DNA from: Chloroflexota bacterium
GTDB taxonomy: Bacteria; Chloroflexota; Anaerolineae; Anaerolineales; Villigracilaceae
Direction: 5' to 3'
NCBI GenBank assembly: GCA_019873655.1
Contig: JAIOAU010000007.1
Span: 1 to 64,000, forward strand
Length of the DNA: 64,000 bases
Shown here: positions 27,957 to 41,762 of the stretch, in pieces
Numbering within the stretch: position 1 is the first letter of the stretch
Layout of the letters: each line of letters starts with the position of its first letter
Made by a program: the position numbers and the translations under genes
The notes under the pieces: model-generated
Seen by the model: the letters and a program-made list of their open reading frames with translations, nothing else
Told to the model about the DNA's origin: nothing
Databases searched by the model: none

Positions 27957-29015
27957 TTACGAAGCAGCGGGAGTCAGCACGCGGGCAAAATCGGCCGGCT
28001 GAACGCCGGGCGACTCGACCGAGCGACGAGCGTAGAACTGCGCCACTGCTTCGGTCACGGACTCTGGATCTGCGCTAACACCGTCCAGGCTTTTTTCCAG
28101 CGCAGGCAAATCTCCCGCCGGGAAAAAGAAGAAGTCGCCTGAAATATGCACATCGCGCAGTTTTCCGTTCTCATTGACTGCTGTGACTCGGATCAGTCCG
28201 CCCGGCGTTTTGAGCATGTTCTGGACTACGTACACACCCTCGCGAATCTTGATCTGGCGGGCATCGGGACGGCGGCGATCGTTGGCGAACAACCACTCAT
28301 CCGTGTACCGTTCGGCTTGCAGTTCATCGGCTTTGGCAACCAGTTCCGGATCCGGAACAGTTTTATACGTCATTGGACCAAGAAGGGCCTCGTAACGGCG
28401 GGCCAGCGCGTCGCCCAACGCACGCGTCTCGGGCATTTTTCCAGTCTCGCGTAGGAAGGTGCTCAGATTTTCCTGGAGGGTTTTGAAAACCTTGTCGCGG
28501 AACTTTTCATCCGGCACCCGCAGACATTTGCTCATCATATCGTAATCGAAATCGAGGATGAAATTGCCCACAAGGATGACCATGTCGTTAATCTCGGCCG
28601 CTCCGGTGCCGGATACTTTGCGCCCGTTCGCAATGATGTCGTTGACCGGCTTGTACTCCGCCGCCACGCCAAACTCCCGGTAGGTCTCGATGACCGGCGC
28701 GAGGAATTTACGATAGAACTCATCCTTGCTTTCCGGAATCTCGGGCCTGTCCTTATGCAGGATGAGCTGGAAAAATAACTGGTTGCCATCCAGATAGACC
28801 GCGCCGCCGCCCACTTCGCGCCGGAAGACAGGAATATTATTCTCGCGGACAAAGTCCAGGTCGATTTCCTGCTCGGCATCCTGGTGAAACCCGATGCAAA
28901 CGTAAGGCGTAGCAGGGCGCAGGATGAAAAATGCCTCGTGTTGCAAATAGGCTGCTGCATGGTAAAGGGCCTGACTGTGTTCCCAGGAAACCTTGTCGAG
29001 AAAGAAATAATCCAT
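27957..29015 (-). CDS. lplA: Lipoate-protein ligase A-like protein
   Basis: The 352-residue protein attaches lipoate to a target lysine via lipoyl-AMP. The LplA blocks are visible: FRREVGGGAVYLDGNQLFFQLIL near residues 65-85, the carrier-binding lysine in NGRKVSGTGAAE near 135-145, and a C-terminal accessory domain (GGLIRVTAVNENGKLRDVHISGDFFFFP). It is the last gene of the hydrogenase cluster. With the lipoyl carrier gene at 34525-34971 in the same cluster, a dedicated ligase/carrier pair is the obvious reading, as in sHdr clusters. Start ATG 29015 has AAGGAG. Octanoate versus lipoate as substrate cannot be told. Confidence 0.88.
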   Translation of the reverse strand: MDYFFLDKVSWEHSQALYHAAAYLQHEAFFILRPATPYVCIGFHQDAEQEIDLDFVRENNIPVFRREVGGGAVYLDGNQLFFQLILHKDRPEIPESKDEFYRKFLAPVIETYREFGVAAEYKPVNDIIANGRKVSGTGAAEINDMVILVGNFILDFDYDMMSKCLRVPDEKFRDKVFKTLQENLSTFLRETGKMPETRALGDALARRYEALLGPMTYKTVPDPELVAKADELQAERYTDEWLFANDRRRPDARQIKIREGVYVVQNMLKTPGGLIRVTAVNENGKLRDVHISGDFFFFPAGDLPALEKSLDGVSADPESVTEAVAQFYARRSVESPGVQPADFARVLTPAAS

Positions 29016-29065
29016 TTGTATTCTCCTTTGTGGTATTCTGAATTCAAATGACTGTCAAGAACCGT

Positions 29066-29557
29066 TCATTCGATCAATCCCCACTCCCTTAGAACGCGCT
29101 CGGCGCGGGTCAGGATTTCTGGCATGACCGCTTCGATTTGCGGGCTGATGCCGTAGCCGATAGAGAGATCTACAGGCTGGGCGCCGACCAAATGCAAATA
29201 TTCAGGGAATTTGTCGCGGAACTTCGCTAGTCCGAGCACTTCCTGGAACGTGATCTGATGGTCAGACATCTTGATATTACGATAGAGGGGAATTTCGTCT
29301 TTGGCCAACTCCATGACCGATCCCGGCAGGGAGAAACGGGAAACCATCGAATCCAACACCAGCAGATGGGAAGCCTCTTCCACCCAGGGCAATAAATTCA
29401 GCCCCAGCGCTCCGCCATCGAGGAATTCGATTTGCGGATATTTTCTCCCAAAACGTTCCTCGAGCCGTTTTAAGGCGAAGACCCCCAATCCTTCGTCACG
29501 GTTAAGTGTATTACCCAAGCCAAGGACGATTCTCCGGGTTGCTCCAATCATGTTCAT
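29066..29557 (-). CDS. hynD: [NiFe] hydrogenase maturation protease
   Basis: The endopeptidase of about 163 residues trims the C-terminus of the hydrogenase large subunit after nickel insertion. LGLGNTLNRDEGLGVFALKRLEE matches the HyaD/HycI signature with a nickel-binding acidic residue; LDSMV supplies the second and SDHQITFQEVLGLAKF the conserved His region. The substrate, the large subunit encoded just upstream, still carries its C-terminal extension. Start is ATG 29557 (or 29551); neither has a clear ribosome site, and a strong 15-bp hairpin lies just upstream. That may lower its output relative to the structural genes. Confidence 0.88.
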   Translation of the reverse strand: MNMIGATRRIVLGLGNTLNRDEGLGVFALKRLEERFGRKYPQIEFLDGGALGLNLLPWVEEASHLLVLDSMVSRFSLPGSVMELAKDEIPLYRNIKMSDHQITFQEVLGLAKFRDKFPEYLHLVGAQPVDLSIGYGISPQIEAVMPEILTRAERVLREWGLIE

Positions 29558-29579
29558 TGCCAGAAACGAATGATTATCT

Positions 29580-29621
29580 ATTGGATCAGGGCGCAGTCCT
29601 AGAACCGCGCCCTGATCCAAT
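29580..29621 (-). promoter_or_regulatory. 15-bp intercistronic hairpin between hynL and hynD
   Basis: ATTGGATCAGGGCGC (29580-29594) and GCGCCCTGATCCAAT (29607-29621) are perfect complements around a 12-base loop. It fills the gap between the large-subunit stop and the protease start, with no T-run after it. It is likely an RNA-processing, stability or translation-tuning element. Confidence 0.75.
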
Positions 29622-29633
29622 GCTTGTTTGGCA

Positions 29634-31373
29634 TCAATCGATGCACACCGTCAAACCGGTCGCAACCTCGCTCAGGTCATTCCCGTCTGCATCCACCATG
29701 TGGATGGCGCAAGCCATGCATGGATCAAACGAATGGATGGTACGCAGGATCTCAAGCGGCAGTTCGGGATTGGCCAACGGTGTTCCGACCAGCGACGCCT
29801 CGTAGGCGCCAGGTTGTCCCTTATGATCACGCGGTGAACCGTTCCAAGTGGTGGGCACGACCATCTGGTAGTTGGTCAGTTTGCCGTTGTCAATCACGCA
29901 CCAGTGACCGAGGGCGCCACGCGGGGCTTCCATATAGCCGAAACCTTCGGCATGGGCGGGCCAGGTGGTCGGTTCCCATTTCTCGCCGTTGAAGGTGTCG
30001 GTGTCACCAGCCTTGATCGCGTCGATCAGGTCGTTGTAAGTCTTGAGCATAAAGTCGGCAAAGACCTTGGTCTCGATGGCGCGGGCGGCGGTGCGTCCCA
30101 GCGTGGAGAAGACAGCGGAGAGCGGCGCGCCGAGCGCGTCGAGAACCATGTTGGTCAGTTCCACGGTCTGCTCGTGACCCTTGGCATACATCGCCAGCAC
30201 ACGCGCCAGCGGGCCGACTTCCATCGGGGTCTCTGCCCAGCGCGGGGCCTTGAGCCAGGAGTACTTCTGCTCGACTTCCAGCTGCTCATAGGGCGGTCTG
30301 GGGCCGGTGTAGTTGAACTTGGTCTCACCTTCCCAGGGATGCAGACCGGCTTCGTCGCCGACGCTCTGCTCGTACCACGAGTGCGCCACAAATTCCTGCA
30401 TCTTCTCGAAGTCGCGCGGATCGGGTTCCTGAATATTGGCCAGGTCGCGGCCAATAATGACCGAACGCGGCACAAGGAACTTGGAAGTGTCGCTGTTGTC
30501 AGTATCTGGGAACTCGCCCCAGGTCAGGAAGTTGCCAAGCCCTTCCCCCAAACCGGCATAATCCAAGTAGTAGGGCGCAATAGCCAGCAGGTCCGGCAAA
30601 TAGACCTGATCAACGAACTGAATCATCCGGTCAATGCTGTCCTTGATGATGGACAGGCGTTCTGCATTGATAGCCGTGTCAGAATTCATGTCAATTGGCA
30701 TGGGCACGCCGCCCACCACAAAGTTCGGGTGCGGATTCTTGCCGCCGAAGATGGTGTGGATCTTGGTAAACGTGCGCTGCGCGTCCAAGGCTTCCAGGTA
30801 GTGCGCCACAGCCAGCAGGTTAATTTCGGGCGGGAGCTTGTAAGCCGGATGGCCCCAGTAGGCGTTGGCAAAGATGGAGAGCTGGCCGCTGTCCACAATC
30901 GCCTTGACCTTGTTCTTCACATCCGAGAAGTAACCCGGTGAAGCGTTCGGCCAGGGGGAGATCGCCTTCTGAATGTCAGCGGTTGCAGCCGGGTCCGCGC
31001 TAAGGCATCCGGTAACATCGACCCAGTCGAGGGCGTGCAGGTGATAGAAATGCATCACGTGGTCATGGACGTATTGCTGGGCGATCATCAGGTTGCGAAT
31101 CAGGTTGGCGGCCTTGGGGATTTTGATGTTCAAGGCATCTTCCACCGAGCGGATCGAAGCAAAGGAATGGACGGTGGTGCAAACGCCGCAGGCGCGCTGG
31201 GCAAAAGCCCAGGCATCGCGCGGGTCGCGGCCTTTCAGGATGATTTCGATGCCGCGTACCATTGTGCCGGAGGAATATGCCTTCGTGATGGTGTTACGGG
31301 AGTCCACTTCCGCTTCGATGCGCAGGTGGCCTTCGATACGGGTAATGGGGTCAATAACTAGTCTCTGTGCCAT
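29634..31373 (-). CDS. hynL: [NiFe] hydrogenase large subunit (Isp-type, group 1-like)
   Basis: The 579-residue subunit holds the Ni-Fe site. The N-terminal L1 motif is RIEGH...RACGVCTTVH and the C-terminal L2 motif is DPCMACAIH; all four nickel-binding cysteines are present. After the His a 21-residue tail remains (MVDADGND..., ending TVCID), which the protease gene downstream would remove. Gene order small-Isp1-Isp2-large matches the Isp-type hydrogenases known from Allochromatium, Thiocapsa and Aquifex relatives. H2 oxidation or production would pass electrons through the small subunit to Isp1/Isp2. Start ATG 31373 has AGGAGG. The exact group number needs a tree. Confidence 0.93.
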   Translation of the reverse strand: MAQRLVIDPITRIEGHLRIEAEVDSRNTITKAYSSGTMVRGIEIILKGRDPRDAWAFAQRACGVCTTVHSFASIRSVEDALNIKIPKAANLIRNLMIAQQYVHDHVMHFYHLHALDWVDVTGCLSADPAATADIQKAISPWPNASPGYFSDVKNKVKAIVDSGQLSIFANAYWGHPAYKLPPEINLLAVAHYLEALDAQRTFTKIHTIFGGKNPHPNFVVGGVPMPIDMNSDTAINAERLSIIKDSIDRMIQFVDQVYLPDLLAIAPYYLDYAGLGEGLGNFLTWGEFPDTDNSDTSKFLVPRSVIIGRDLANIQEPDPRDFEKMQEFVAHSWYEQSVGDEAGLHPWEGETKFNYTGPRPPYEQLEVEQKYSWLKAPRWAETPMEVGPLARVLAMYAKGHEQTVELTNMVLDALGAPLSAVFSTLGRTAARAIETKVFADFMLKTYNDLIDAIKAGDTDTFNGEKWEPTTWPAHAEGFGYMEAPRGALGHWCVIDNGKLTNYQMVVPTTWNGSPRDHKGQPGAYEASLVGTPLANPELPLEILRTIHSFDPCMACAIHMVDADGNDLSEVATGLTVCID

Positions 31374-31383
31374 GGGATACCTC

Positions 31384-32649
31384 CTACTCCACCAGGGCGT
31401 CGGCGACCATCTGCGCCAGCCCGATGACTTTCCAATCGAGTTTGAAATGATCCACGCTGTCGGTAAACTGCAAGCGGCAGTTGGAACAGGTCATGACAAC
31501 CGTCTTTGCTCCGACTTTGTTCACCTGGTCAATCTTGAGTTCGAATGCAGCGTAGCGGACCGGATCGGCAGCCTTGACAGCAATCACGCCGCCGCCGCCG
31601 CCACAGCAAACAGACTGCTCGCGGTTGGGGGTCATTTCCTTGAACGATTCAGGAGCCAGAACCTTGAGGATGTCGCGCGGCTCCTGGATATGACCACCCT
31701 TGCGCTGGATCTTACAGGCGTCGTGGAAGGTGATCGTACCATCGCCGTCAAAAGCGCCCGGCTTCAGCCTGATCCTGCCGCTGCCCACCAGTTCTCCCAG
31801 AACGCCGGTGATGTGGATGATTTCGAAATCATTGGCCTCGGGCAGCCAGTTGGCAGCATGCCAGCGCAGAGCGTCGTAGGCATGGCCGCACTCGGTCACC
31901 ACGATGCGCTTGACGCCCAGTTCCTTCGCGCCTTCCAGCACACGGCTGAGAAAGAGTTTGGTGTTCTCCTCACTGCCCTGGTAGAAACCGAAGTTGACAA
32001 CTTCGCGCGCCTTGCTGCTCACCGTCCATTTTTCGCCAGCCGCGTTGAGAATTTTGGCAATGGCGGCAATATTGGTGGGGAATTTCATCACTTCGATGGA
32101 AGAGAAGACAACCAGGGTATCTGCTCCCTGCACGTCGCGCGGAATCTCGACTTCCCATTCGTCGGCCACCCACTCCAGGCGCTGGTCCCAGACCGAGTCG
32201 GTCATACCCAGCGGGCTGCCCTCCTCGATCTGTTTGTTGACCGCCGTCATCAGGTCTGCGGGGACCATCCCGGCGGCGGCCAGACCGGCTCGCATTCCAT
32301 GGAGAAGCGAGCCAAGGTCAATGCCCATCGGGCAGACCATCGAGCACTTGTTGCAGACGGTGCAGGCGTAGTAGTTCAAGTCGCTCCAGTGCTGGAGGTC
32401 TTCGTCGGTGATGCGTTTGTCAATGCCCAAAGCGGTCTTGATAGCGCCAAAGATGGTGAAACGTTGCTCATAAGCGCGGCGCAGCAGTTCGACTTTCCAG
32501 ACAGGAGCATATTCCGGGTTGCCGGTCGCCTGATAGAAGTGGCAGGCCTCGGCGCACATCCCACAACGGGTACAGGCTTCGAGTTGGGAAGCCACCCAGC
32601 CGCCGGTCTCATGAACGAACGCGTTCAATGCTTGTTTGGTAGCAGTCAT
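31384..32649 (-). CDS. isp2: Isp2: HdrD-like Fe-S protein with CCG domains
   Basis: The 421-residue protein resembles the fused HdrC/HdrB (HdrD) subunit of heterodisulfide reductase. Two [4Fe-4S] motifs open it (CTRCGMCAEACH near 26-37; CTVCNKCSMVCP near 95-106). A first CCG-like domain is degenerate (TECGHAY only). The second is complete, with HDACKIQ, CCGGGGG and CSNCRLQF, the pattern that binds the non-cubane cluster doing disulfide chemistry. No membrane segment is seen, so it should dock on Isp1. Starts with AGGAGGTG before ATG 32649 and follows Isp1 by 10 bases. In this cluster it is the best candidate for a disulfide or persulfide-reducing site. Confidence 0.9.
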   Translation of the reverse strand: MTATKQALNAFVHETGGWVASQLEACTRCGMCAEACHFYQATGNPEYAPVWKVELLRRAYEQRFTIFGAIKTALGIDKRITDEDLQHWSDLNYYACTVCNKCSMVCPMGIDLGSLLHGMRAGLAAAGMVPADLMTAVNKQIEEGSPLGMTDSVWDQRLEWVADEWEVEIPRDVQGADTLVVFSSIEVMKFPTNIAAIAKILNAAGEKWTVSSKAREVVNFGFYQGSEENTKLFLSRVLEGAKELGVKRIVVTECGHAYDALRWHAANWLPEANDFEIIHITGVLGELVGSGRIRLKPGAFDGDGTITFHDACKIQRKGGHIQEPRDILKVLAPESFKEMTPNREQSVCCGGGGGVIAVKAADPVRYAAFELKIDQVNKVGAKTVVMTCSNCRLQFTDSVDHFKLDWKVIGLAQMVADALVE

Positions 32650-32659
32650 GTCACACCTC

Positions 32660-33337
32660 CTATACCCTCACGCCGCGCTTGCCGAATTCCTGGCCATGGA
32701 TGGCGCGCGAGAAGAAGTAAAAGATAAAGTGGGAGATGCGGCTGAGCGGGATCCAGATCAGCAACACATTCACCGAAATCATGTGCAGGCTGTACATGAC
32801 TTCATAGCGTGGGCCGAGGTGGTGGGTTAAAGCGTATCCCGTAATCATCGGCAGGAAAACGAACAGCCAAGCCAAGTATTCCGCCGGACCGGAGATGAGT
32901 CTCAAGACCGGGTGGATGATGCGGTTGATTAGCAGGATCAACATCCCAACGATGCCCGCTGCCGCCAGCCAGTCCACAATCGGCAAAGGCAGGGTTCCCC
33001 AACCAAAGCCGAGCAGGCTCTTGAAGACCAGCATGTGAGCGGTTCCCAGGAAAACGACCACGAACAATCCCAGGTGGAACAATCCGCCGCCGATGTAGAT
33101 CAAGGGATTGCGCTTGAAGGTGTTCTTGACCCACGGGATGAACGGCCAGACCAGGATGCCCTTCAGGAAGGACATGACCACGCCGCCGGCCTTGCTTCCC
33201 TTTGCCGGAACCCGGTCTTTGCTCCAGCCAAGTCCGATCACAGTCACCAGCCGGTAGATCATCCCGGCCACAAAGATGAGCAGCGCGGCATAGAAAAACG
33301 GGCCGCGTGCAAATTCAAGGATAGCAGTCCAGTTCAT
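32660..33337 (-). CDS. isp1: Isp1: NarI/DsrM-like membrane cytochrome b subunit
   Basis: The 225-residue protein has five hydrophobic segments. Histidines suited to b-heme binding occur in LFHLGLF, GTAHML, THHLG and YSLHMIS. The family includes NarI, DsrM, HdrE and hydrogenase Isp1, which pass electrons between a periplasmic enzyme, quinones and a cytoplasmic partner. The ATG at 33337 shares bases with the small-subunit stop (TGATG), so they are translationally coupled. An upstream in-frame extension is only the shadow of the small subunit. It should anchor the hydrogenase and connect it to Isp2. Confidence 0.88.
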   Translation of the reverse strand: MNWTAILEFARGPFFYAALLIFVAGMIYRLVTVIGLGWSKDRVPAKGSKAGGVVMSFLKGILVWPFIPWVKNTFKRNPLIYIGGGLFHLGLFVVVFLGTAHMLVFKSLLGFGWGTLPLPIVDWLAAAGIVGMLILLINRIIHPVLRLISGPAEYLAWLFVFLPMITGYALTHHLGPRYEVMYSLHMISVNVLLIWIPLSRISHFIFYFFSRAIHGQEFGKRGVRV

Positions 33338-34443
33338 CACTCGCCTCCTTTGGCCTTCTTCTTTGCTTGATTGACCAGCGTTGCTCCAACGCCAAGCGCC
33401 GCGCCAGCCGCCGCTGCAGCGCCGATCGCGGCCAGTTCGGGACGATCCAGCGGAGCCGACTGGCCCTGGTAGAACCCGCCGCCGTCCCAGAAATCGGGCT
33501 GCGAGCATCCCAGGCACGGATGCCCGGACTGGACCGGGAACGACAGCCCCGTATCCCAGCGGATGGAAGCGCAGGCGTTGTAAGTCGTGGGACCTTTGCA
33601 GCCCAACTTGTACAAGCAGTAGCCCTTCTTGGCGCCTTCGTCATCGAACGAGAGGGCAAACTTGCCCGCCTCGTAGAACGGGCGGCGCAGGCAGCGGTCG
33701 TGGACGGTCACACCGTAGAACGGCATCGGGCGGTGCAACCCGTCCAGTTCCGGCAGGGTACCGAAAATGGCAAAATGGGCGATCGTGCCAGTGGTGGCTT
33801 CTGGAATGGCCGGGCAGCCAGGAATGTTCACAACCGGCTTGTCGGTGATGAGTTCCCAAACGCCTTTCGCATCGGTGGGATTGGGCTTGGCCTTCGGCAG
33901 TCCGCCGAACGAAGCGCAGTTGCCGGTGGCGATGATCGCCGCCGCTCCGGCCGCGGCTTCCTGCAACAGGTCCAGAGCCGTCCGTCCGCCGACGGTGCAA
34001 TAAACCCCATCGTCTGCAACCGGGATGCTGCCTTCCACGACCAGGATGTACTGGCCGGCGTACCTTTGCATGGCGTCCTGCTTGGCCTGCTCCACCTGGA
34101 AACCGGCAGCAGCCGAAAGCGTCTCATGGTATTCGATGGTCAGCGTGTTGAGGACCAGGTTCACCAGCGTGGGCGAGTTCGATCGGGTGATGGCCTCGCT
34201 GCAGCCGGCGCAGTCCTGGAATTCCAGCCAGATGACCGGCAGGCGGGGCCTGGTCTCCAGGGCCTTGGCGATGACACGGTTGACGCTATAGCCGCGTCCC
34301 AGTCTGGGAGGCAATCCGCTGGCAGAGACCGGCGGAACGTTCGTCAACCCCATCGCGGCGGCCAGCAAGCCGCTCAGCTTGAGAAAATCGCGCCGTGAAA
34401 CGCCGCTTTTTTTCAAGCCCTCAGCAATGGTTTCTTCGGGCAT
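33337..34443 (-). CDS. hynS: [NiFe] hydrogenase small subunit with Tat signal
   Basis: The 368-residue subunit carries the Fe-S relay. A twin-arginine signal SRRDFLKLSG is at residues 16-25, so the enzyme is exported with its large subunit. Cluster ligands are seen in DCAGCSEA (proximal), GNCASFGG and PGCP, and in HDRC, YCLYKLGCKG, YNAC and HPCLGCSQPDFWD for the medial and distal clusters. A C-terminal Ala/Gly-rich hydrophobic stretch with a Lys-rich end (about 335-365) can serve as a membrane anchor. The ATG at 34443 has GGAGGA. A hairpin separates it from the lipoyl carrier gene upstream. Confidence 0.93.
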   Translation of the reverse strand: MPEETIAEGLKKSGVSRRDFLKLSGLLAAAMGLTNVPPVSASGLPPRLGRGYSVNRVIAKALETRPRLPVIWLEFQDCAGCSEAITRSNSPTLVNLVLNTLTIEYHETLSAAAGFQVEQAKQDAMQRYAGQYILVVEGSIPVADDGVYCTVGGRTALDLLQEAAAGAAAIIATGNCASFGGLPKAKPNPTDAKGVWELITDKPVVNIPGCPAIPEATTGTIAHFAIFGTLPELDGLHRPMPFYGVTVHDRCLRRPFYEAGKFALSFDDEGAKKGYCLYKLGCKGPTTYNACASIRWDTGLSFPVQSGHPCLGCSQPDFWDGGGFYQGQSAPLDRPELAAIGAAAAAGAALGVGATLVNQAKKKAKGGE

Positions 34444-34481
34444 ATCCTCCTCCTTCAGTAAGACAAGGTTAGAATAAATTT

Positions 34482-34518
34482 AGGAAGCATGCGCCGGTCA
34501 ACCGTTCGCATGCTTCCT
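34482..34518 (-). promoter_or_regulatory. 12-bp intercistronic hairpin between lbpA-like gene and hynS
   Basis: AGGAAGCATGCG (34482-34493) and CGCATGCTTCCT (34507-34518) pair perfectly; the 13-base loop can form a further CGGT/ACCG stem. On the coding strand it is followed by AAATTTATT, so partial termination between the sulfur-carrier and hydrogenase genes is possible. Confidence 0.7.
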
Positions 34519-34524
34519 GAACCA

Positions 34525-34971
34525 CTAAGCGCAAGAGATATTGTCAGCTTCCAGCTTCTTTTGGTAGGCTGTCAGACCATCCGCTCCGGTGACCAAGCCG
34601 CTTTTCTCAACCTCCCAGTTGCTCGGCTTGAGCTCAGCAATCCAGCCTTCCCCGTAGGGATCGGTGATTGCCAGGTTGGGATCGGCAGCCAGTTTGTCGT
34701 TGCCACGCACCAGTATACCGGTTACAGGCGCAGGAACAGGACCGACAAATTTGCTGCTCTCGACCGTCGCCAGACTCTTCCCCTGGGCCACTTCCTGCCC
34801 GACAGCCTTTGCCTTGACCGTCACCGCGGCCAGCTTGCCGCCGGACAATTTTCCAGCCACCGCCGTCATGCCGACGCGCACCAGCCCGCCTTCAATTGGT
34901 TTTGCCCAGACGTGCTTTTCGATCAAGTAGTACAAATCTTCGGGCAAATAGCAACCACGAATATCGGCCAT
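34525..34971 (-). CDS. lbpA: Lipoyl carrier protein, GcvH/LbpA-like
   Basis: The 148-residue protein has the GcvH fold. The modified lysine is K74 in VESSKFVGPVPAPVTG; glycine-cleavage H proteins typically have AASDI-like residues after the lysine, whereas FVGP is closer to the lipoate-binding proteins of sHdr sulfur oxidation. No other glycine-cleavage gene is nearby, while a lipoate ligase, TusA and DsrE genes are. I therefore infer a carrier of lipoamide-bound sulfur rather than glycine cleavage. Start ATG 34971 has AAAGGAG. Sure of the fold and lysine; the sHdr-type role is inference. Confidence 0.82.
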   Translation of the reverse strand: MADIRGCYLPEDLYYLIEKHVWAKPIEGGLVRVGMTAVAGKLSGGKLAAVTVKAKAVGQEVAQGKSLATVESSKFVGPVPAPVTGILVRGNDKLAADPNLAITDPYGEGWIAELKPSNWEVEKSGLVTGADGLTAYQKKLEADNISCA

Positions 34972-34994
34972 TGAAATTCTCCTTTCCTGATTTG

Positions 34995-35360
34995 TCAGAA
35001 GGTCAGCGTCTTGCTATCCTCGGCCATCTGCCACATGGCAGCCCCGCCGACCATTTTTACGCCATCGATCAGATCTTGCTGGGTGAGGCCGTGGAGTTCC
35101 ATGGATGCCGTACAGGCTGTGAATTCAACGCCGGCATCCAAGGCATCTTGGATGAAATCACTGACCGGCTTTCCTCCAGCCTTGGGATAGACGTTCTCGG
35201 CCAGCCCTTTCTTGAGAAGCAAAGTTCCATCGATGGTGAAGAACATGGTAACCTCATAGTCCATCGCGGCCGCCAAGGTGGCAAAGAAGAACGGCGTGGC
35301 GCAGCGGCGCGGCGTATCAGGACCACTGGTCATAATGATGAGGATTTTTTCGTCAGCCAT
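34995..35360 (-). CDS. DsrE family sulfur-transfer protein (first)
   Basis: The 121-residue DsrE/TusD-fold protein has FTACTASMELHGL, with Cys83 in the conserved cysteine position of the DsrE/DsrE3-like group. A second Cys20 is near the N-terminus. The flanking LIDGVKMVGGAAMWQMA is nearly the same as in the second paralog. Family members carry persulfide on the cysteine and exchange it with TusA-type proteins. ATG 35360 with an AGGAGA site. It is 25 bases downstream of the next dsrE gene and 23 upstream of lbpA. Confidence 0.82.
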   Translation of the reverse strand: MADEKILIIMTSGPDTPRRCATPFFFATLAAAMDYEVTMFFTIDGTLLLKKGLAENVYPKAGGKPVSDFIQDALDAGVEFTACTASMELHGLTQQDLIDGVKMVGGAAMWQMAEDSKTLTF

Positions 35361-35385
35361 TTGTATTCTCCTAAATATGGGGGGA

Positions 35386-35865
35386 TCAGAATGTGAGGGC
35401 AATGGCGTCGTTGGCAGCATACTCAATGAAGGCCGCCGCGCCAGCCACTTCCACACCATCAATCAGGTCTTCCTTTTTGATTCCCAAGACATCCATGGAC
35501 ATCTGGCAGGCGATGATGCGCACTCCGCTTTCGACGGCCATTTCAAGCAATTCGCTGAGTTTGGCGACATTGGCCTTCTTCATCCAACTGTTCATCATGC
35601 TCGTCGCAACCGCCGTCATGCCGGGCAGAACTCCAAGAATGTTTGGGACAGAAATGCCAGGGATGGGCTGGGGCATGGCCGGGTTGGCAATTGGCGCTAC
35701 TTGGAGTTTATCCGCCTTTCCTTTTTTGATGATTTCCAACCCATAGAAAGTGAAGAAGATCGCCACTTCCATATCCATCGCAGCCGCGGCAGTAGCAAGA
35801 ATCAGAGGCGGATAGGCCGCGTCCAGACTGCCATGCGCAGCAATGATTGCCATTCGTTTTGCCAT
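35386..35865 (-). CDS. DsrE2-like sulfur-transfer protein (second)
   Basis: The 159-residue member of the DsrE/F/H fold has an insertion (ISVPNILGVLPGMTAVATSMMNSWMKK) that is typical of the DsrE2 branch. The cysteine lies in IIACQMSMDVLGIKK (Cys120), followed by DLIDGVEVAGAAAF. DsrE2 genes are found in sHdr and related sulfur clusters, but their chemistry is less clear than that of DsrE3. The ATG at 35865 has AAGGAG. It lies between the other two DsrE genes. Confidence 0.8.
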   Translation of the reverse strand: MAKRMAIIAAHGSLDAAYPPLILATAAAAMDMEVAIFFTFYGLEIIKKGKADKLQVAPIANPAMPQPIPGISVPNILGVLPGMTAVATSMMNSWMKKANVAKLSELLEMAVESGVRIIACQMSMDVLGIKKEDLIDGVEVAGAAAFIEYAANDAIALTF

Positions 35866-35882
35866 AAGAATCTCCTTATTTA

Positions 35883-36248
35883 TTAATAGACCAACACGTT
35901 GGTAGCCTCGGCGCACTCTTTCACGAAAGTGGTCGCGTTGACAACCACCGCGCCTTTGACAAACTCTTTCTCTGGGTCAATTTGGCGGGACTTGACGCAA
36001 GGCCCGCACACCAGCAGTTTGCCGCCATTCTCAAGGTAAATATCCAACAGTTCCTTGAGGGGCGGGAAGCCGGCTGCAAAGACGTGCTCGGCTACACCCT
36101 GCATGATGAGCATCACGCCATTGGCTTGGAACCCCAGAGTCACATCCATATCTGAAGCCTGGGCCGCAGTCGCCATCACGAAGGGAATGGTGGCTCGCTC
36201 AGGGTCTTCGGGGCCATGTGTACACATAAGAATTAACTTTTCCGCCAT
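35883..36248 (-). CDS. DsrE family sulfur-transfer protein with CxxC (third)
   Basis: The 121-residue DsrE-fold protein has LLVCGPCVKSRQI (Cys81 and Cys84), a CxxC pair instead of the single cysteine of its neighbours. Another Cys is at residue 9. The pair could form a disulfide or bind persulfide on one Cys. ATG 36248 with GGAGGTG. It is the first of the three dsrE genes, just after the tusA terminator. Confidence 0.8.
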   Translation of the reverse strand: MAEKLILMCTHGPEDPERATIPFVMATAAQASDMDVTLGFQANGVMLIMQGVAEHVFAAGFPPLKELLDIYLENGGKLLVCGPCVKSRQIDPEKEFVKGAVVVNATTFVKECAEATNVLVY

Positions 36249-36293
36249 AGCACCTCCATAAATTAAACTAATTCAGGCAAAGTTGAGCCAAAT

Positions 36294-36319
36294 AAAAAAG
36301 GACTGCCGTTTGGCAGACC
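36294..36319 (-). terminator. Rho-independent terminator after tusA
   Basis: On the minus strand GGTCTGCC, loop AAAC, GGCAGTCC (one mismatch) is followed by TTTTTT. It lies between tusA and the dsrE genes and could end or attenuate the regulator-tusA transcript. Confidence 0.75.
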
Positions 36320-36324
36320 TTTCT

Positions 36325-36561
36325 CTACTTCACCTTCTTGATATAGAACGTGAATTTTCCACCGTCCTGCTCATGGCCGAGCAGTTCCTGTCCGGTCTTG
36401 GCTGTCCACGCCTGGACATCGGGCAGCGAGCCCGGATCGGTGGCAATCATCTTGAGCACCTGTCCCACCCGCAAGCCGTCCACTGCCTTCTTGGTTTTCA
36501 AGATTGGCATTGGGCAAGCCAAACCACTGCAATCCAGTTCCTGATCAAAGTTGAACGACAT
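36325..36561 (-). CDS. tusA: TusA-like sulfurtransferase
   Basis: The 78-residue TusA/SirA protein has the CPxP motif LACPMPILKTKKAV (catalytic Cys16) and another Cys11. It relays persulfide sulfur in tRNA thiolation or in dissimilatory sulfur pathways; the position between a regulator and dsrE genes favours the latter. ATG 36561 has AAGGAGG. Secure on motif. Confidence 0.92.
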   Translation of the reverse strand: MSFNFDQELDCSGLACPMPILKTKKAVDGLRVGQVLKMIATDPGSLPDVQAWTAKTGQELLGHEQDGGKFTFYIKKVK

Positions 36562-36571
36562 ACGAGCCTCC

Positions 36572-37324
36572 TTAAGGGTTGATAGCACTCATCTCGGCAA
36601 TCTGCCGCAGACGACTCATGAAATTGGCGCGTTCCAAACTGATCTGCTCAAACGTGCGCGCCACGCGCTCCAGCCAGCCGCTGATCTGCGCCACCTTACG
36701 CTCTTCCAGTATCGGGATTTGTTCAGAGGCCTGCTTCAGCAAATCTTTATCAATGTGATACTGCTGAGACAAATTTCGCAGGCGCTCATCTTCCTCTTCC
36801 GCATTGGGAGCCTGCAAATAAAATTGACCCGCCACCAAAATGGCGATCAACTCTCCCTCCGCCTCAATGCGGGCGCGGGCATATTGGAGACCGGCGTGGC
36901 AGGATATGAATTCTGGCTCGGAATTCCTTTGTTCCACCAACTTCCGCCACGAGGCCATGCAGGCCTGCCGGCCTTCTTCGCTCCCTAAAATTAATTTACA
37001 AAAATCACACGAATTACTGATGCGCGTGAGCGGACGGCCTTCCTTATCAGCCGTCACCGCGCCAATCTCGGCAATTTCAGCAAATACATCCTGCACAGGC
37101 TGCATGCAATGCAATGGCAGAATATTTGCATCGAGGGGGATACTCCGTTGATTGACATACCTGGGCCCGGAAAGCATTTCTTCCAAATCGCTTGCGTAGA
37201 AACGCCATTGGTTTCCCACCTTCACACCATTCAAACGACCATCTTTCAACATGCGATAGATAGTGGTGCGATCCACTTTAAGCAATTCCTGGGCCTGCTT
37301 GGCTGTTAGAAGCGTATTATTCAT
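36572..37324 (-). CDS. HTH transcriptional regulator with PocR sensory domain
   Basis: The 250-residue protein has an N-terminal MerR/excisionase-type helix-turn-helix (LTAKQAQELLKVDRTTIYRMLKDG, near 6-27) and a wing (KVGNQWRFYASDLEEML). A PocR ligand-sensing domain with clustered cysteines follows (NSCDFCKLI, RQACMASW, FISCHAGLQYAR). PocR domains bind small molecules or metals/hydrocarbons; the Cys pattern also fits an Fe-S or metal site. It is 11 bases upstream of tusA, with a palindrome covering its promoter. It probably controls the cluster and itself. Confidence 0.8.
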   Translation of the reverse strand: MNNTLLTAKQAQELLKVDRTTIYRMLKDGRLNGVKVGNQWRFYASDLEEMLSGPRYVNQRSIPLDANILPLHCMQPVQDVFAEIAEIGAVTADKEGRPLTRISNSCDFCKLILGSEEGRQACMASWRKLVEQRNSEPEFISCHAGLQYARARIEAEGELIAILVAGQFYLQAPNAEEEDERLRNLSQQYHIDKDLLKQASEQIPILEERKVAQISGWLERVARTFEQISLERANFMSRLRQIAEMSAINP

Positions 37325-37359
37325 AGGTGATGTAAGATGAGCCAACCGCGCTTGCAATC

Positions 37360-37402
37360 ATTTGCTATAATATACTATAGCAAATTATAAGGTTTATGAA
37401 AA
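37360..37402 (-). promoter_or_regulatory. Promoter with overlapping 10-bp palindrome operator
   Basis: On the minus strand TTTTCA (37397-37402), 17 bases, TATAGT (37374-37379). The inverted repeat ATTTGCTATA...TATAGCAAAT (37360-37369/37376-37385, 6-base spacer) covers the -10 box, the place for a repressor site. The regulator start is 36 bases downstream of the palindrome. Confidence 0.65.
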
Positions 37403-37417
37403 CAATATGCACATGTA

Positions 37418-37443
37418 ATTTGTCACTATAAAATATGACAAAT
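37418..37443. promoter_or_regulatory. Second palindrome upstream of the regulator promoter
   Basis: ATTTGTCA (37418-37425) and TGACAAAT (37436-37443) are perfect complements with a 10-base AT-rich spacer. It lies about 60 bases upstream of the predicted transcription start on the minus strand, a typical activator position, and it is also upstream of the thyX-like gene. Confidence 0.5.
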
Positions 37444-37552
37444 GTCATGTCCCGCCTGTATCCATGGGACGTTGAGAAAAAAGAAAAGCCAGCCTGCAAA
37501 TACTCTCAACAGCCCGGTTGACTGCCGGGGCGTTTTCGTCTATAGTTTGCCC

Positions 37553-38998
37553 ATGCCCAACCGCCAAATCTACCTCCTGTCCCCCAAAGAACTCCCCCCC
37601 GAAACCATCGCCGTCGCCTTTGCCAAGACCTCCCGCTCGCCAGAGTCGTTCCGCCAGATTGCCGCCGAACTAAGCGAGGAAAAATCCGCCCGCTTCCACG
37701 AAAAATGGGTGGTCGGCTACGGTCACGCCTCGGTGGCCGAACACGCCGTCCTGCACATCGCCATCGAAAACGTCTCGCGGCTGGCGGTCGAATGCATCGA
37801 GTCGAACCGGCTGGCCTCCTACACCGAGAAATCCACCCGCTACCAGAAGTGGGATTCGGACGCCTTTTTCACTCCGCCCGAACTGGACGGCCATCCTCTG
37901 CTCGAAACCTACACCCGGACCTGCCGCCTGCTCTTCGAGACCTACGCGCGGTCGCTGGCCCCGGTCAAGGCGCTGGTCGAAAAGCAGTCCCCGCGCCGGC
38001 CCGACGAGAGCGAGGACGCCTACGACCGGCGCATCCGCTCACAGTACGTCGACTCGTGCCGCTTCCTGCTCCCGGCCGCCTCGCTCGCCAACCTGGGCAT
38101 GACCGCCAACGCCCGCGTCCTCGAACACGCCATCGGCAAGATGCTCTCGCATCCGCTGGAGGAAGTGCGTCAGATCGGCGAAGAGATGAAACGGGTGGCA
38201 CAGGCCGAGGTCCCGACCCTGGTCAAATACGCCGAGGCCCTCCCCTACCTCACAGAAACCCGCGCCGACATCGAGAATCACCCTCTCCTGAGCGCCAATC
38301 GTCAATCGCCAATCGCCAATCGTCAATCGCCAATCGTCAATCCCCAATCGTCCGACTGGTGCATTCTGCACGACTACGACCCCGAGGGCGAGACCAAAGT
38401 CCTGGCCGCGGCGCTCTTTCGTTTCAGCGAGATGTCCTTCCGCGAGGCTTTGGAGACCGTCCGCGCCGCGCCGCCCGAAGAGTGCGAAAGTCTGGCCGCC
38501 GCGCTGCTCGCCAAACTGGGCAAACACGACGCGCCCCTGCGCGAACTCGAACACACCGCCTACACCTTCGAAATCCTCCTCGACCAGGGCGCGTACGCCG
38601 AGTTCAAGCGCCACCGCATGATGACCCAGACGCCCCAGGCGCTGACCGCCCGCCTGGGTTACGCCCTGCCGCGTCGGATCGCGGAGGCCGGTTGCGAGGT
38701 CCCGTATCGGGCCGCGATGGAGGCCGCCGCCGAAACGTACGAAAAGTTAGCCGAGTGGAATCCGCATGTCGCCGCTTACATCGTCCCCAACGGCTTCTAT
38801 CGGCGCGTCTTGTTCACCATGAACCTGCGCGAGGCGTTTGCCTTCTGCCGTCTGCGCGCCGCGCCCAACGCCCACTTCTCGATGCGCCGCCTGGCCCAGC
38901 GCCTGGCCAAAGAAATCCGTCGCGTCCACCCCCTGCTGGCGAAATACATAAACCTGCCAGACGAAACCTGGCAGGAACTCGGACGAGAATTCTTATGA
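37553..38998 (+). CDS. Tandem-domain ThyX-like protein
   Basis: The 481-residue protein contains two ThyX-like (flavin-dependent thymidylate synthase) domains. Domain 1 has GHASVAEHAVLHIAIENVSR (residues 57-76) and SNRLASYTEKSTRY (84-97), which keeps the second half of the RHRxxSxxxxSxR signature but not the RH. Domain 2 (near 350-380) keeps RHRMMTQTPQ but not the SxxxxSxR part. The linker near residue 248-266 is encoded by a heptanucleotide repeat. ATG 37553 fits the domain start; longer reading begins in the promoter region. Whether it makes dTMP is uncertain. A hairpin terminator follows. Confidence 0.78.
   Translation: MPNRQIYLLSPKELPPETIAVAFAKTSRSPESFRQIAAELSEEKSARFHEKWVVGYGHASVAEHAVLHIAIENVSRLAVECIESNRLASYTEKSTRYQKWDSDAFFTPPELDGHPLLETYTRTCRLLFETYARSLAPVKALVEKQSPRRPDESEDAYDRRIRSQYVDSCRFLLPAASLANLGMTANARVLEHAIGKMLSHPLEEVRQIGEEMKRVAQAEVPTLVKYAEALPYLTETRADIENHPLLSANRQSPIANRQSPIVNPQSSDWCILHDYDPEGETKVLAAALFRFSEMSFREALETVRAAPPEECESLAAALLAKLGKHDAPLRELEHTAYTFEILLDQGAYAEFKRHRMMTQTPQALTARLGYALPRRIAEAGCEVPYRAAMEAAAETYEKLAEWNPHVAAYIVPNGFYRRVLFTMNLREAFAFCRLRAAPNAHFSMRRLAQRLAKEIRRVHPLLAKYINLPDETWQELGREFL
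38296..38351 (+). repeat. Eight copies of a CAATCGY heptanucleotide in the ThyX-like gene
   Basis: Eight tandem 7-base units (CAATCGT or CAATCGC, one CAATCCC) run from 38296 to 38351 inside the linker. Since 7 is not a multiple of 3, loss or gain of one unit would shift the frame. Confidence 0.85.
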
Positions 38999-39000
38999 AC

Positions 39001-39036
39001 TCCTTGCCCCGGCCATTCCCGGGGCAAGGACGTTTA
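39001..39036. terminator. Strong hairpin between convergent genes
   Basis: TCCTTGCCCCGG (39001-39012) and CCGGGGCAAGGA (39019-39030) form a 12-bp stem right after the ThyX-like stop, followed by CGTTTATA. It probably ends both convergent transcripts. Confidence 0.7.
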
Positions 39037-39453
39037 TAGACTGGCCAATTGACCGAGAAAGCCGATGATGGTCAAGCCGCAAAAGGACAGCACCACCAAC
39101 CCGCTCAGGATGACGGCGACGACCGCTAGCGTCTTCTTGACATCCTTCTGCAGGAGGGCCACAATCCCCATGATGAGCGCGATGAAATTCAAGAGCGGGC
39201 CGCACCAGGAGAGAATCGAGGAGGCCACCATCAGCGGCGAAGACGGATCGATGGCCTGAAAAGGATTTTGCGCCGCGGCGGGATTGCTCAGCCCCACCGA
39301 AGCGCCATATACGGCGGAGAGCATTACGGCGACGCAGAAGACCAACACGCCCACCAAACTGACAATGAAGGCAGCCACGCCCAGTTTGGATTGCTTTTGT
39401 CCGGCGGGAGGCAAAGCCGCGTCAGAAACGGGGGGAAGAGAGGAATCATTCAT
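39034..39453 (-). CDS. Small multi-spanning membrane protein (DUF4190-like)
   Basis: The 139-residue protein starts MNDSSLPPVSDAALPPAGQKQSKLGVAAFIVSLV. It has a Pro-rich cytoplasmic head and three hydrophobic stretches (about 24-48, 74-98, 107-135). KLGVAAFIVSLVGV and IMGIVALLQKDVKKTLAVVAVILS are of the DUF4190 style. It is a paralog of the next leftward gene. Start ATG 39453 has AAGGAG. Function unknown. Confidence 0.65.
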   Translation of the reverse strand: MNDSSLPPVSDAALPPAGQKQSKLGVAAFIVSLVGVLVFCVAVMLSAVYGASVGLSNPAAAQNPFQAIDPSSPLMVASSILSWCGPLLNFIALIMGIVALLQKDVKKTLAVVAVILSGLVVLSFCGLTIIGFLGQLASL

Positions 39454-39499
39454 AGGGCACACTCCTTGGTTGTTTAGATTCGTCGGCCAGAACAGCCGG

Positions 39500-39883
39500 C
39501 TACATACTCCCCATGACCCGAATCAAATTGAGACCAACGATGAGGCAATAGCCGACCAGGAACAGGGCGCTGAGGACGAGGCCCAAAATGCCAAAAATCT
39601 TCTTGGTGTTTTTCTGCGTCACTGCGCCGATGCCCAACCCCAGCGCCGCCAGCGCCAGGATGCCGCTGAAGCAGGAAAAGGCGACGTCGATCGTATTATA
39701 AGCGGGATTCACCTGGAGGCCGCCGCTCAACGAAAAGATGATGACCATATCGATGCAGATGACCAACATCGCCAGAATGGCCAGGACGAAGGAGATGATT
39801 CCCAGCGTAGAATGTTTCTGGGGCGCCGGCTCGGCGGCTGCTTCGAGAGGCGGAGGGGGATAGGACGAACTCGAGTCGTACAT
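39500..39883 (-). CDS. Small multi-spanning membrane protein, paralog (DUF4190-like)
   Basis: This 127-residue paralog of the preceding-numbered gene has the same plan: Pro-rich head (YPPPPLEAAAEPAPQ), STLGIISFVLAILAMLV, a second segment around ILALAALGLGIGAVTQKNTKKIFG and a third at the end. It is transcribed first, and its neighbour follows after 46 bases. Function unknown; a tandem duplication is evident. Confidence 0.65.
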   Translation of the reverse strand: MYDSSSSYPPPPLEAAAEPAPQKHSTLGIISFVLAILAMLVICIDMVIIFSLSGGLQVNPAYNTIDVAFSCFSGILALAALGLGIGAVTQKNTKKIFGILGLVLSALFLVGYCLIVGLNLIRVMGSM

Positions 39884-39977
39884 GATGCGCTCCTTTGAAC
39901 AAAAGATTTGAATAAGTATATCCCAAAACGCTTGTCAAAACAACAGCATCGAATTTGTCCTGGGGTAAAATTACCCT

Positions 39978-40448
39978 ATGCCCTACCTGATTGACGGACA
40001 CAATCTGATTCCGAGCCTCGGCCTGCGCCTGGACTCGCCCGACGACGAACTGGCGCTGATCGAACGCCTGCAGCAATTCTGCCGCCTGCAGCGCACGCGG
40101 GCAGAAGTCTACTTCGACGGCGCGCCGCCCGGCTACGCCGGCAAGCGCGGCTTCGGGCTGGTGACCGCCCATTTCGTCCGCCAGGGGTCCAGCGCCGACG
40201 CCGCGCTCGAACAACGGCTGCAAGCCCTGGGACGCGCCGCCCGCAACTGGACAGTCGTCAGTTCGGATGGGCGCGTCCGCCGCGCCGCCCAGGCCGTCCA
40301 CGCCCGGGCGCTCTCGGCGGGCGAGTTCGCCGCCCAGGTTCGGGCAGCCTCTCTCCATGAAACGCAGTCCCCTCCGGCCGAGCCCGGACTCAGCCCCGAA
40401 GAACTGGAAGAATGGCTGACCCTCTTCAGAGAGCGGCGGGGGAAATAA
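39978..40448 (+). CDS. NYN domain ribonuclease, YacP/Rae1-like
   Basis: The 156-residue PIN-like NYN protein starts MPYLIDGHNLIPSLGL, with the first acidic residue of the active site. VYFDGAPPG and VVSSDGRVRRAAQ supply further conserved acidic/Ser positions, as in YacP/Rae1 endonucleases that cut mRNA on ribosomes. The -10 box TAAAAT (39966-39971) lies only six bases before the ATG and no ribosome site is visible, so the mRNA may be leaderless. Confidence 0.85.
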   Translation: MPYLIDGHNLIPSLGLRLDSPDDELALIERLQQFCRLQRTRAEVYFDGAPPGYAGKRGFGLVTAHFVRQGSSADAALEQRLQALGRAARNWTVVSSDGRVRRAAQAVHARALSAGEFAAQVRAASLHETQSPPAEPGLSPEELEEWLTLFRERRGK

Positions 40449-40519
40449 TTCGTACAATTTAGATAATTCTAATCTAAATTTAATGCAATCCCGGCGATTT
40501 TTGGGTATAGTATGACCAA

Positions 40520-40660
40520 CATACCTGCCTCCCTTTTACTGGTATTGCAGGTATGAACCATCGCAGGTCAGCATGTCCCCCCCATGCTGGCCGGGATCGG
40601 TGGTGTCCCCTCCCCTCAGGATCACCAGGCCTCGGCCTGGTGATCGAGGTTAACGGCCAG
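40520..40660. ncRNA. Structured intergenic element with alternative pairings
   Basis: Three stems are visible: CATACCTGC/GCAGGTATG (40520-40528/40547-40555), GGTCAGCATG/CATGCTGGCC (40566-40575/40583-40592) and a perfect 12-bp GATCACCAGGCC/GGCCTGGTGATC (40620-40631/40634-40645). ACCTGC can instead pair with GCAGGT at 40563-40568. CTGGCCG (40587-40593) can pair with CGGCCAG (40654-40660), excluding the second stem. No known RNA family was recognised. It may be a small RNA, a cis-regulator of the deacetylase gene or a repeat. Confidence 0.45.
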
Positions 40661-40704
40661 TCGTCCCTAATCAAAAGCAGAGATTGTCGACTATAATCCC
40701 GCTC

Positions 40705-41715
40705 GTGAAAACCGCCTGCGCTCTCGTCCGTTCACCCGACCACACCTTTCCCGGCCACCCGGAAAATCCCTCCCGCCTGCAATTCACAGACAGGTTGGCA
40801 GAACGGCCTTACGCCGAGCGGCTGATTTTCCTGGACCCGCAGCCGGCCCCCCTCGAAACGGTCGCCGCCGTCCACACCGACCGGATGCTAGGCGCTCTCC
40901 AGGCCGCCTGTCAAGAGGGGACGTCCATCGTGGACTACGCTCCGACCTACGTCACGCCCTCGACGTATGCCGACGCCCTCCTGGCCGCCGGCGGGGCGCT
41001 GGCCTGCGCCCAGGCTGTGCTTGCGGGCCAGGCGCGCAACGCCTTTGCCATCGTCCGCCCGCCCGGCCACCACGCCGAACCAGACCGGCCGATGGGCTTC
41101 TGCCTGCTCAACAACATCGCCATCGCCGTCCGCTTTGCGCTCTCCCACGGAATCGAGCGGGCGCTGATCTTCGATTTCGACGTCCATCACGGCAACGGCA
41201 CCCAGACGATTTTCTGGGACGAGCCGCGGGTGGCGTTCTTCTCCACCCATCAGGAAAACATCTACCCCGCCGGCAGCGGCCGCCTCGACGACGCCCCGCA
41301 CGCCCGCGGCCGGATCGTCAACCTGCCGCTGCCGCCCCTGGCCGGCGACTCCGCCTTTGCGCGCCTGGCCGAGGAGATTCTCGTCCCGCTGGCGCGCCGC
41401 TTCGCCCCGCAGATGATGTTCGTCTCGGCCGGCTTCGACGGACACTGGAGCGACCCGTTGGCTCACCTCGGCCTGTCTTCGGCCGGGTACTTTTCGCTGG
41501 CCCAGCGACTGACCGCCCTGGCCGAGGAACTCTGCGGCGGGAAACTCGTCTTCGTCCTGGAAGGCGGCTACGAGCCGAGAAATATAGCCGCCGGGCTGGA
41601 CGCCGTCCTCTCGGCGCTGACCGGCAGCCCGTTCACCCCCGCCGATCCCAGTCCGTACCTGGAGCCGGACATCGGGGCAAGGCTGAACGAACTGCGCCAG
41701 CGGCATGGCCTTTAA
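40705..41715 (+). CDS. Histone-deacetylase superfamily amidohydrolase
   Basis: The zinc deacetylase of 336 residues has RPPGHHAEP (the charge-relay His pair), IFDFDVHHGNGTQ with the zinc ligands Asp and His, and the distal SAGFDGH with another zinc Asp. HPENPSRL near the start and LEGGYEP at the end are superfamily signatures. Bacterial members act on acetylpolyamines, acetoin-related or protein acetyl groups. Start GTG 40705 lies about 7 bases after a TATAAT at 40692-40697, so the mRNA may have no leader. Substrate uncertain. Confidence 0.88.
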   Translation: MKTACALVRSPDHTFPGHPENPSRLQFTDRLAERPYAERLIFLDPQPAPLETVAAVHTDRMLGALQAACQEGTSIVDYAPTYVTPSTYADALLAAGGALACAQAVLAGQARNAFAIVRPPGHHAEPDRPMGFCLLNNIAIAVRFALSHGIERALIFDFDVHHGNGTQTIFWDEPRVAFFSTHQENIYPAGSGRLDDAPHARGRIVNLPLPPLAGDSAFARLAEEILVPLARRFAPQMMFVSAGFDGHWSDPLAHLGLSSAGYFSLAQRLTALAEELCGGKLVFVLEGGYEPRNIAAGLDAVLSALTGSPFTPADPSPYLEPDIGARLNELRQRHGL

Positions 41716-41720
41716 AACAC

Positions 41721-41757: not shown

Positions 41758-41762
41758 CTCAT

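Follow-up and report, generated by a model that had tools for sequence, protein, structure and literature searches.

The window analysed in this study is a stretch of 64,000 nucleotides from a Chloroflexota genome (contig JAIOAU010000007.1, positions 1 to 64,000). Twelve co-directional genes on its minus strand, from position 37324 down to 27957, constitute the block considered here: pocR, tusA, three dsrE genes, lbpA, hynS, isp1, isp2, hynL, a protease gene and lplA (Table 1). The block combines an Isp-type [NiFe] hydrogenase with a lipoate-binding protein (LbpA), a lipoate ligase and the sulfur carriers TusA and DsrE. The core of this combination is conserved in other genomes, and its products may act together as an H2-dependent sulfane-sulfur reductase.

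Families of the block proteins were named by Pfam and NCBIfam profiles. An ATG start is possible for all twelve genes (for the protease gene, a TTG start at 29620 is an alternative), most genes are preceded by a clear ribosome-binding site, and the intergenic gaps or overlaps are small. This order on one strand, together with the coordinates and families, agrees with a preliminary description made from the letters of the window alone. The GC content equals 56.4% in the block, compared with 63.6% upstream and 62.3% in positions 37325–52000. No matching palindrome was found upstream of pocR in the 14 relatives looked at, and hence the operator candidate listed in Table 1 is weak.

Table 1. Genes of the block and the palindrome upstream of it, with positions in the window
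Feature	Position	Strand	Description	Profile matches
pocR	36572..37324	-	regulator with HTH_17 and PocR sensory domain	PF10114 119 bits; PF12728 54 bits
tusA	36325..36561	-	sulfur carrier, Cys16	PF01206 88.6 bits
dsrEa	35883..36248	-	DsrE-family, accessory, Cys81/Cys84	PF02635 64 bits
dsrEb	35386..35865	-	DsrE2-like, Cys120	NF047629 SulfCarrDsrE2 179.6 bits (below cut-off 210)
dsrEc	34995..35360	-	DsrE-family, Cys20/Cys83	PF02635 71 bits; PF13686 76 bits
lbpA	34525..34971	-	lipoate-binding protein, Lys74, Cys7, Cys147	PF01597 (GCV_H) 95 bits
hynS	33337..34443	-	hydrogenase small subunit	TIGR00391 416.6 bits; Tat signal models matched
isp1	32660..33337	-	membrane cytochrome b-like protein	TmcC/HmcE models 127/120 bits (below cut-offs 240/275)
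isp2	31384..32649	-	DsrK/HdrD-like Fe-S subunit	NF045796 DsrK 242 bits (below cut-off 400)
hynL	29634..31373	-	[NiFe] hydrogenase large subunit	PF00374 (NiFeSe_Hases) 760 bits
hynD-like maturation protease	29066..29557	-	HycI/HupD-type	TIGR00140 119 bits (below cut-off); TIGR00072 108 bits (above cut-off)
lplA	27957..29015	-	lipoate-protein ligase, catalytic and C-terminal domains	PF21948 128 bits; PF10437 34 bits
palindrome upstream of pocR	37360..37385	-	10-bp arms, 6-bp spacer, AT-rich stretch; possible operator, weak	

The hydrogenase bears the marks of the group 1e Isp type: gene order, nearest structure of the large subunit, Ni-Fe ligands, Tat signal and membrane anchor. The Ni-Fe ligands of HynL (Cys62, 65, 552 and 555) are invariant. 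Its closest solved structure is 3MYR (818 bits, with 697 for the next one), which we take to be the HydSL enzyme of Allochromatium vinosum; Allochromatium also has an Isp-type hydrogenase. HynS has a hydrophobic C-terminal segment (residues 339–357). For Isp1, neither a Pfam match nor a solved structure was found; the protein has four hydrophobic segments, and the candidate heme ligands His88, 101, 185, 203 and 214 are invariant in 46/46 sequences.

Isp2 contains the CCG domain and scores best in NCBIfam with DsrK, below the equivalog cut-off of that model, and then with TmcB. It carries two CxxCxxCxxxC motifs, with cysteines conserved in 46/46 sequences, and a complete CX35CCGX38CxxC site (45/45). 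The usual form of the latter motif is CX31–39CCGX35–36CxxC, the second spacing in Isp2 being longer. The best structural match of the predicted Isp2 model (predicted local distance difference test score, pLDDT, 88.9) is EtfD, a protein serving quinone reduction; the matches that follow include HdrB from heterodisulfide reductase complexes.

Two cysteines, one near either end of the protein, distinguish LbpA from GcvH (Cao et al. 2018, PMC6067878; this and the other papers cited below are represented by excerpts). Both cysteines (Cys7 and the penultimate Cys147) and the predicted lipoylation site Lys74 are invariant in all 47 hydrogenase-linked LbpA, that of the window included. In a tree of 53 rows, the lipoyl protein of the block falls within the LbpA part (support 99/99), apart from GcvH (99/99). 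The tree included 17 of the 47 hydrogenase-linked proteins, and these form a clade of their own (100/99), inside which one degenerate paralog (L134) is found. The AlphaFold2 model has the H-protein fold (pLDDT 93). Judged by its sequence, the lipoyl protein of the block is LbpA, not GcvH. The domain set of LplA is compatible with an sLpl(AB) lipoate ligase, a type that acts on LbpA and co-occurs with LipS1/LipS2; a LipA gene is present in the genome. Among the sulfur carriers, conservation of cysteines is complete as well: Cys16 of TusA in 40/40 sequences, Cys81 and Cys84 of DsrEa in 11/11, Cys120 of DsrEb in 41/41, and both Cys20 and Cys83 of DsrEc in 46/46.

Conservation of the block was studied from two sides. 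On the LbpA side, one genome per species (GTDB r220) was scanned with 13 hydrogenase-linked LbpA queries, yielding 44 loci. One of them (L132, 29% identity, no cluster) was a stray match and was dropped before counting; with L033, L150 and L151 added and the window excluded, 46 further loci were obtained. Loci L032, L073–L082 and L152 duplicate twelve of L089–L130 and were counted once. In all 46 loci, lbpA is followed by hynS. The order lbpA-hynS-isp1-isp2-hynL on one strand is retained in 43/43 loci holding all five genes, and this extends to relatives the small subunit-Isp1-Isp2-large subunit order noticed earlier in the window. Where the contig was long enough, the other genes were present as follows: tusA in 39/41 loci, dsrEb in 40/44, dsrEc in 45/45, the protease gene in 38/38 and pocR in 29/40. 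An lplA homolog (26–79% identity) occurs in 37/39 such loci, lying upstream of the block in L125 and L129. The co-occurrence of isp2, lbpA and lplA, proposed earlier as a check, was found in other genomes. The three dsrE genes are not equally conserved: the second and the third are retained, but the first (dsrEa) is present in only 10/46 loci.

Two observations on gene structure in the relatives are added here. Several of them (e.g. L092:13625-13945) have an open reading frame of approximately 106 codons, STAS-like by eye, between isp2 and hynL; it is absent from the window. An apparent Isp1-Isp2 fusion in L150 (674-aa frame) was rejected, as its N-terminal part is a wrong-frame open reading frame.

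The search from the Isp2 side did not use LbpA and covered two overlapping samples, one drawn from the class (396 genomes) and the other from the phylum (400). Isp2 with at least 55% identity was found in 16 genomes including that of the window, and lbpA adjoins it in 15 of them (14/15 if the window is set aside). The next matches have 39% identity or less. A plasmid search for further Isp2 gave one record, a hydrogenase of Methylovirgula, with no lbpA among its listed neighbours. In the Isp2 tree, a single clade (support 99/99) unites 44 of the 45 rows that belong to lbpA-linked hydrogenases; the remaining row, L130, and the lbpA-less L083 stand beside it in unresolved positions.

By their labels, the loci belong mostly to Anaerolineae and other Chloroflexota, then to Candidatus Aminicenantes, Saccharicenans and Acidobacteriota, with one metagenome-assembled genome (MAG) of Actinomycetota. 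Conservation in several Chloroflexota lineages, named earlier as an observation that would support a system, is thus found, and the range reaches beyond them. The label of an individual MAG is not always reliable: in the Isp2 tree, L102 (Pseudomonadota by label) pairs closely with the Chloroflexota locus L097, while L117 (Aminicenantes by label) falls among Anaerolineaceae. Seven Isp2 rows labelled Saccharicenans, Aminicenantes or Acidobacteriota form a solid clade (100/100). Eleven loci have no pocR, and all but one of these carry a label other than Chloroflexota.

In the window, the block is located between ribF and thyX. These two genes are adjacent in two genomes of the same genus, G001 (86% complete) and G002; no match to the block proteins was found in the ribF-thyX stretches read there, and the only LbpA-type matches in both genomes are weak and GcvH-like. 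Since the flanking genes are adjacent where the block is lacking, the block appears to move as one unit.

LbpA also occurs apart from hydrogenases. In G045, G209 and G138, the stretches read show the gene order dsrE-dsrE-(DsrM-like)-(Isp2-like)-lbpA and contain no hydrogenase gene. A tusA gene was seen in G045 and G209, and the DsrM-like protein of one tested genome matches Nitrate_red_gam. The Isp2 proteins of these three genomes are distant from the hydrogenase clade and lie inside the clade of dsrE-tusA-isp1-isp2 operons without lbpA or hydrogenase. Such a topology implies that lbpA joined DsrK-like subunits at least twice or was lost repeatedly. Further, 20 loci with Isp2 homologs below 40% identity were read (19 of the 38 matches from the class sample and one from the phylum sample). 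An LbpA-like gene lies nearby in four of them (in three with the hallmark cysteines), tusA in 10 and dsrE in 15, while five have neither dsrE nor tusA in the stretch. Sulfur carriers are therefore frequent, though not universal, companions of Isp1/Isp2-like pairs. The presence of LbpA beside DsrMK-like pairs without a hydrogenase speaks against its being a mere hydrogenase maturation factor, pointing to LbpA as a putative partner of the Isp2/DsrK-type subunit and not only of the hydrogenase.

Nine loci of the window's class (L087, L135, L140–L145 and L148) hold small operons of dsrE, tusA, isp1-like and isp2-like genes with neither lbpA nor hydrogenase, some of them with an ArsR- or PocR-type regulator; tusA was not seen in L143, and an isp1-like gene was not detected in L148. 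Operons of this kind possibly represent the ancestral module. Two LbpA-like genes were rejected because both hallmark cysteines are missing: that beside an Isp2-like gene in L133 (7142-7582), and the second one of G228 (L134:11078-11524), which has no adjoining hydrogenase and no Isp2-like neighbour.

Hdr-like sulfur oxidation genes have been called 'inevitably associated' with LbpA (PMC6067878). A profile search found no hdr-like genes among the block proteins other than Isp2, and the hdrC1B1A-hyp-hdrC2B2 set of the sHdr pathway is absent from the block; outside the block, a search of the genome with a single Etf-linked Hdr protein gave a best match of 40% identity. The statement that neither hdrA nor another sHdr gene is present holds for the block; Etf/Hdr-like and HdrA/HdrB/Mvh-like genes lie elsewhere, on contig C9 (C9:3000-22900, L156). 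This locus encodes EtfAB, a NarI-HdrCB-like (EtfD-like) protein, an HdrCB-like protein, then HdrB- and HdrA-like proteins and an Mvh-type hydrogenase, which is VhuA/MvhA-like with a score below the cut-off of the model. The carriers of the block had been described as sHdr modules. TusA, DsrE, LbpA and LplA are indeed all present, but LbpA forms its own clade and, as it also accompanies DsrMK-like pairs without a hydrogenase, it is not confined to Hdr clusters. Nor is the sHdr label applied to the loci of relatives with LbpA of 44–52% identity (L034–L042). They are referred to as Etf/Hdr-like LbpA clusters; Pfam profiles, run for L036 and L042, gave EtfAB, Hdr-like CCG and radical-SAM proteins.

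The genome of the window is 99.8% complete. Its only match to TusA is the block copy, and its only LbpA is that of the block; a second match on contig C23 is weak and GcvH-like, and there is none at the Etf/Hdr-like cluster on C9. A PF04143 (YeeE-type) locus is present. No match was found to DsrC or to the heme-copper oxidase COX1, other oxidases not having been searched. Elsewhere in the window, a lower-GC region (52418-62712) contains sugar-modification genes encoding a glycosyltransferase, a flippase-like protein, a DegT aminotransferase, epimerases, a C-methyltransferase and an RMNT_CmcI methyltransferase.

We propose that the block encodes one membrane-bound, energy-conserving H2-dependent sulfane-sulfur reductase (H2:lipoyl-sulfane oxidoreductase), with LbpA serving Isp1/Isp2 as DsrC serves DsrMK; the probability of this reading is estimated as roughly 0.55. 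HynSL, exported via Tat, would split H2 outside the membrane, and the electrons would pass through Isp1, a predicted b-type cytochrome, to Isp2 at the cytoplasmic face. The DsrE proteins and TusA would gather sulfane sulfur and load it onto LbpA, the lipoyl group of which would be attached by the adjacent LplA. In contact with LbpA, the HdrB/DsrK-type cluster site of Isp2 would reduce the sulfur-loaded lipoyl group (a persulfide or trisulfide) or its disulfide, so that sulfide is released and LbpA is reset. With this topology, protons would appear outside and be consumed inside, and the resulting charge separation would conserve energy as a redox loop. The proposal draws on the constant order of lbpA and the hydrogenase genes, on the invariant residues of LbpA, Isp2 and the sulfur carriers, on the DsrMK-like pairs that have lbpA but no hydrogenase, on the likeness of Isp2 to DsrK and HdrB, on 3MYR as the nearest structure of HynL, and on the lack of matches to DsrC and COX1 in the genome.

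The redox potential of H2 is −0.41 V. That of lipoamide is −0.29 V (PMC6067878), and hence the reduction of the lipoyl group by H2 runs downhill. For the Hyd enzyme of Thiocapsa, a single major role is known: in the dark, it reduces elemental sulfur with H2 (PMC10892978). Both facts favour the reductive direction; in HydDB, group 1e is also associated with sulfur respiration (PMC7735108). The earlier suggestion that H2 may be coupled to reduction or oxidation of sulfane sulfur gains support from conservation; of the two directions, the evidence leans to H2-driven reduction.

Several facts weigh against this proposal. Sulfur oxidation is the setting from which LbpA, TusA and DsrE are known. Isp2, with EtfD as its top structural match, could transfer electrons without acting on sulfur. 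DsrC is also present in 10 of the 12 other genomes with LbpA-linked hydrogenases that were tested (it is absent from G399 and G199), and therefore LbpA is no simple replacement of DsrC there. Some loci lack parts of the set: tusA and dsrEb are absent from L150 and L151, and no lplA lies nearby in L098 and L151. Genome G177 (L083) has an Isp hydrogenase with no carriers and no lbpA. Finally, the LbpA of the block might also serve the Etf/Hdr-like cluster on C9.

The same complex could work in reverse, or close to equilibrium: electrons from the oxidation of sulfane sulfur or of dihydrolipoyl-LbpA would leave as H2, driven by the proton-motive force or by syntrophic H2 removal. Group 1e enzymes have been called bidirectional (PMC7735108). 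In a genome with no COX1 match, the electrons may also need an anaerobic sink. However, the step from lipoamide to H2 is uphill by approximately 0.12 V at the H2 potential given above, and none of the twelve proteins is an enzyme that would oxidise sulfane sulfur further. We consider this reversal unlikely, and place it first among the alternatives. The next in our ranking, rated as improbable, is an H2:lipoyl reductase without sulfur cargo, where Isp2 reduces the disulfide of LbpA and dihydrolipoyl-LbpA gives low-potential thiol electrons to cytosolic enzymes. It would agree with the match of the Isp2 model to HdrB and with the thermodynamic suitability of lipoamide as a two-electron acceptor for H2, but it does not account for the co-travelling tusA, dsrEb and dsrEc genes with their invariant cysteines, nor for the invariance of Cys7 and Cys147, typical of most LbpA from sulfur pathways.

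Electrons of H2 might instead go to menaquinone or another acceptor, leaving the carriers to protect or repair the Fe-S and Ni-Fe centres or to sense sulfur. The likeness of Isp2 to EtfD and the nature of Isp1, a membrane-subunit homolog with conserved histidines, would suit such a route. The same carriers, however, accompany DsrMK-like pairs that lack a hydrogenase, and the Isp hydrogenase of L083 manages without them; this possibility ranks third and is regarded as quite doubtful. That two unrelated units merely share a promoter and a neighbourhood is highly improbable, given the order kept in 43/43 loci, which by label come from several phyla, and the presence of the whole block between ribF and thyX, which are direct neighbours in two genomes of the same genus.

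If the H2-dependent reductase proposed above is real, it would explain the likeness of Isp2 to heterodisulfide reductase and predict H2-driven sulfur reduction in Anaerolineae and Aminicenantota, which have been described mainly as fermenters. In a wider form, the proposal would amount to a third energy-conserving route from sulfane sulfur: a membrane H2:lipoyl-sulfane oxidoreductase using protein-bound lipoate, rather than DsrC or quinone, as sulfur and electron acceptor for H2-driven sulfur respiration by uncultured Anaerolineae and Aminicenantota, with LbpA as a general partner of DsrK-type subunits in the reductive direction. We hold this wider form tentatively, at somewhat less than even odds. 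LbpA, so far studied in the Hdr-like setting, is found here in a constant position next to a hydrogenase in loci that by label represent several phyla, and also beside DsrMK-like pairs. This makes it a specific candidate, amenable to purification, for the role of electron partner of the Isp-type hydrogenase.

Among the papers listed from the open-access literature, as represented by titles, openings of abstracts and excerpts and with subscription journals and preprints outside the search, no description of lbpA beside a hydrogenase was found, in line with the initial impression that this combination had not been described. The block resembles the Isp-type (group 1e) HynS-Isp1-Isp2-HynL clusters of Thiocapsa and Acidithiobacillus in gene order, in the heterodisulfide reductase-related Isp2 and in the Tat signal. 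Unlike those clusters, for which the excerpts of PMC7735108 and PMC10892978 name no such genes, it has the lipoyl carrier, TusA, DsrE and lipoate ligase as near-constant members. Thermomicrobium roseum, also of Chloroflexota, has tusA, dsrE and lbpA in a genome that holds a hydrogenase; in that species, the three carrier genes belong to a cluster of 19 genes together with hdrABC and etfAB, and the group 1h hydrogenase is located elsewhere (PMC6776052). With the sHdr-LbpA pathway of Hyphomicrobium and Thioalkalivibrio and with Etf-linked Hdr-LbpA clusters, the block shares the lysine and both cysteines of LbpA, the linked lipoate ligase, TusA and DsrE. It differs from both in that the block has no hdr-like set, a hydrogenase with a DsrMK-like module takes the place of the putative electron partner, and LbpA forms a separate clade. 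DsrMK reduces the DsrC-trisulfide, whereby DsrC is recycled and energy is conserved (PMC10504309). By analogy with DsrMK(JOP) and DsrC, Isp1 and Isp2 would take the roles of DsrM and DsrK, with a small sulfur-carrier protein as the substrate; in contrast to that system, Isp2 scores below the DsrK cut-off (242 bits against 400), the genome has no DsrC match, and a hydrogenase is attached. As far as these sources go, each part is known, and it is the fixed combination that appears to be new.

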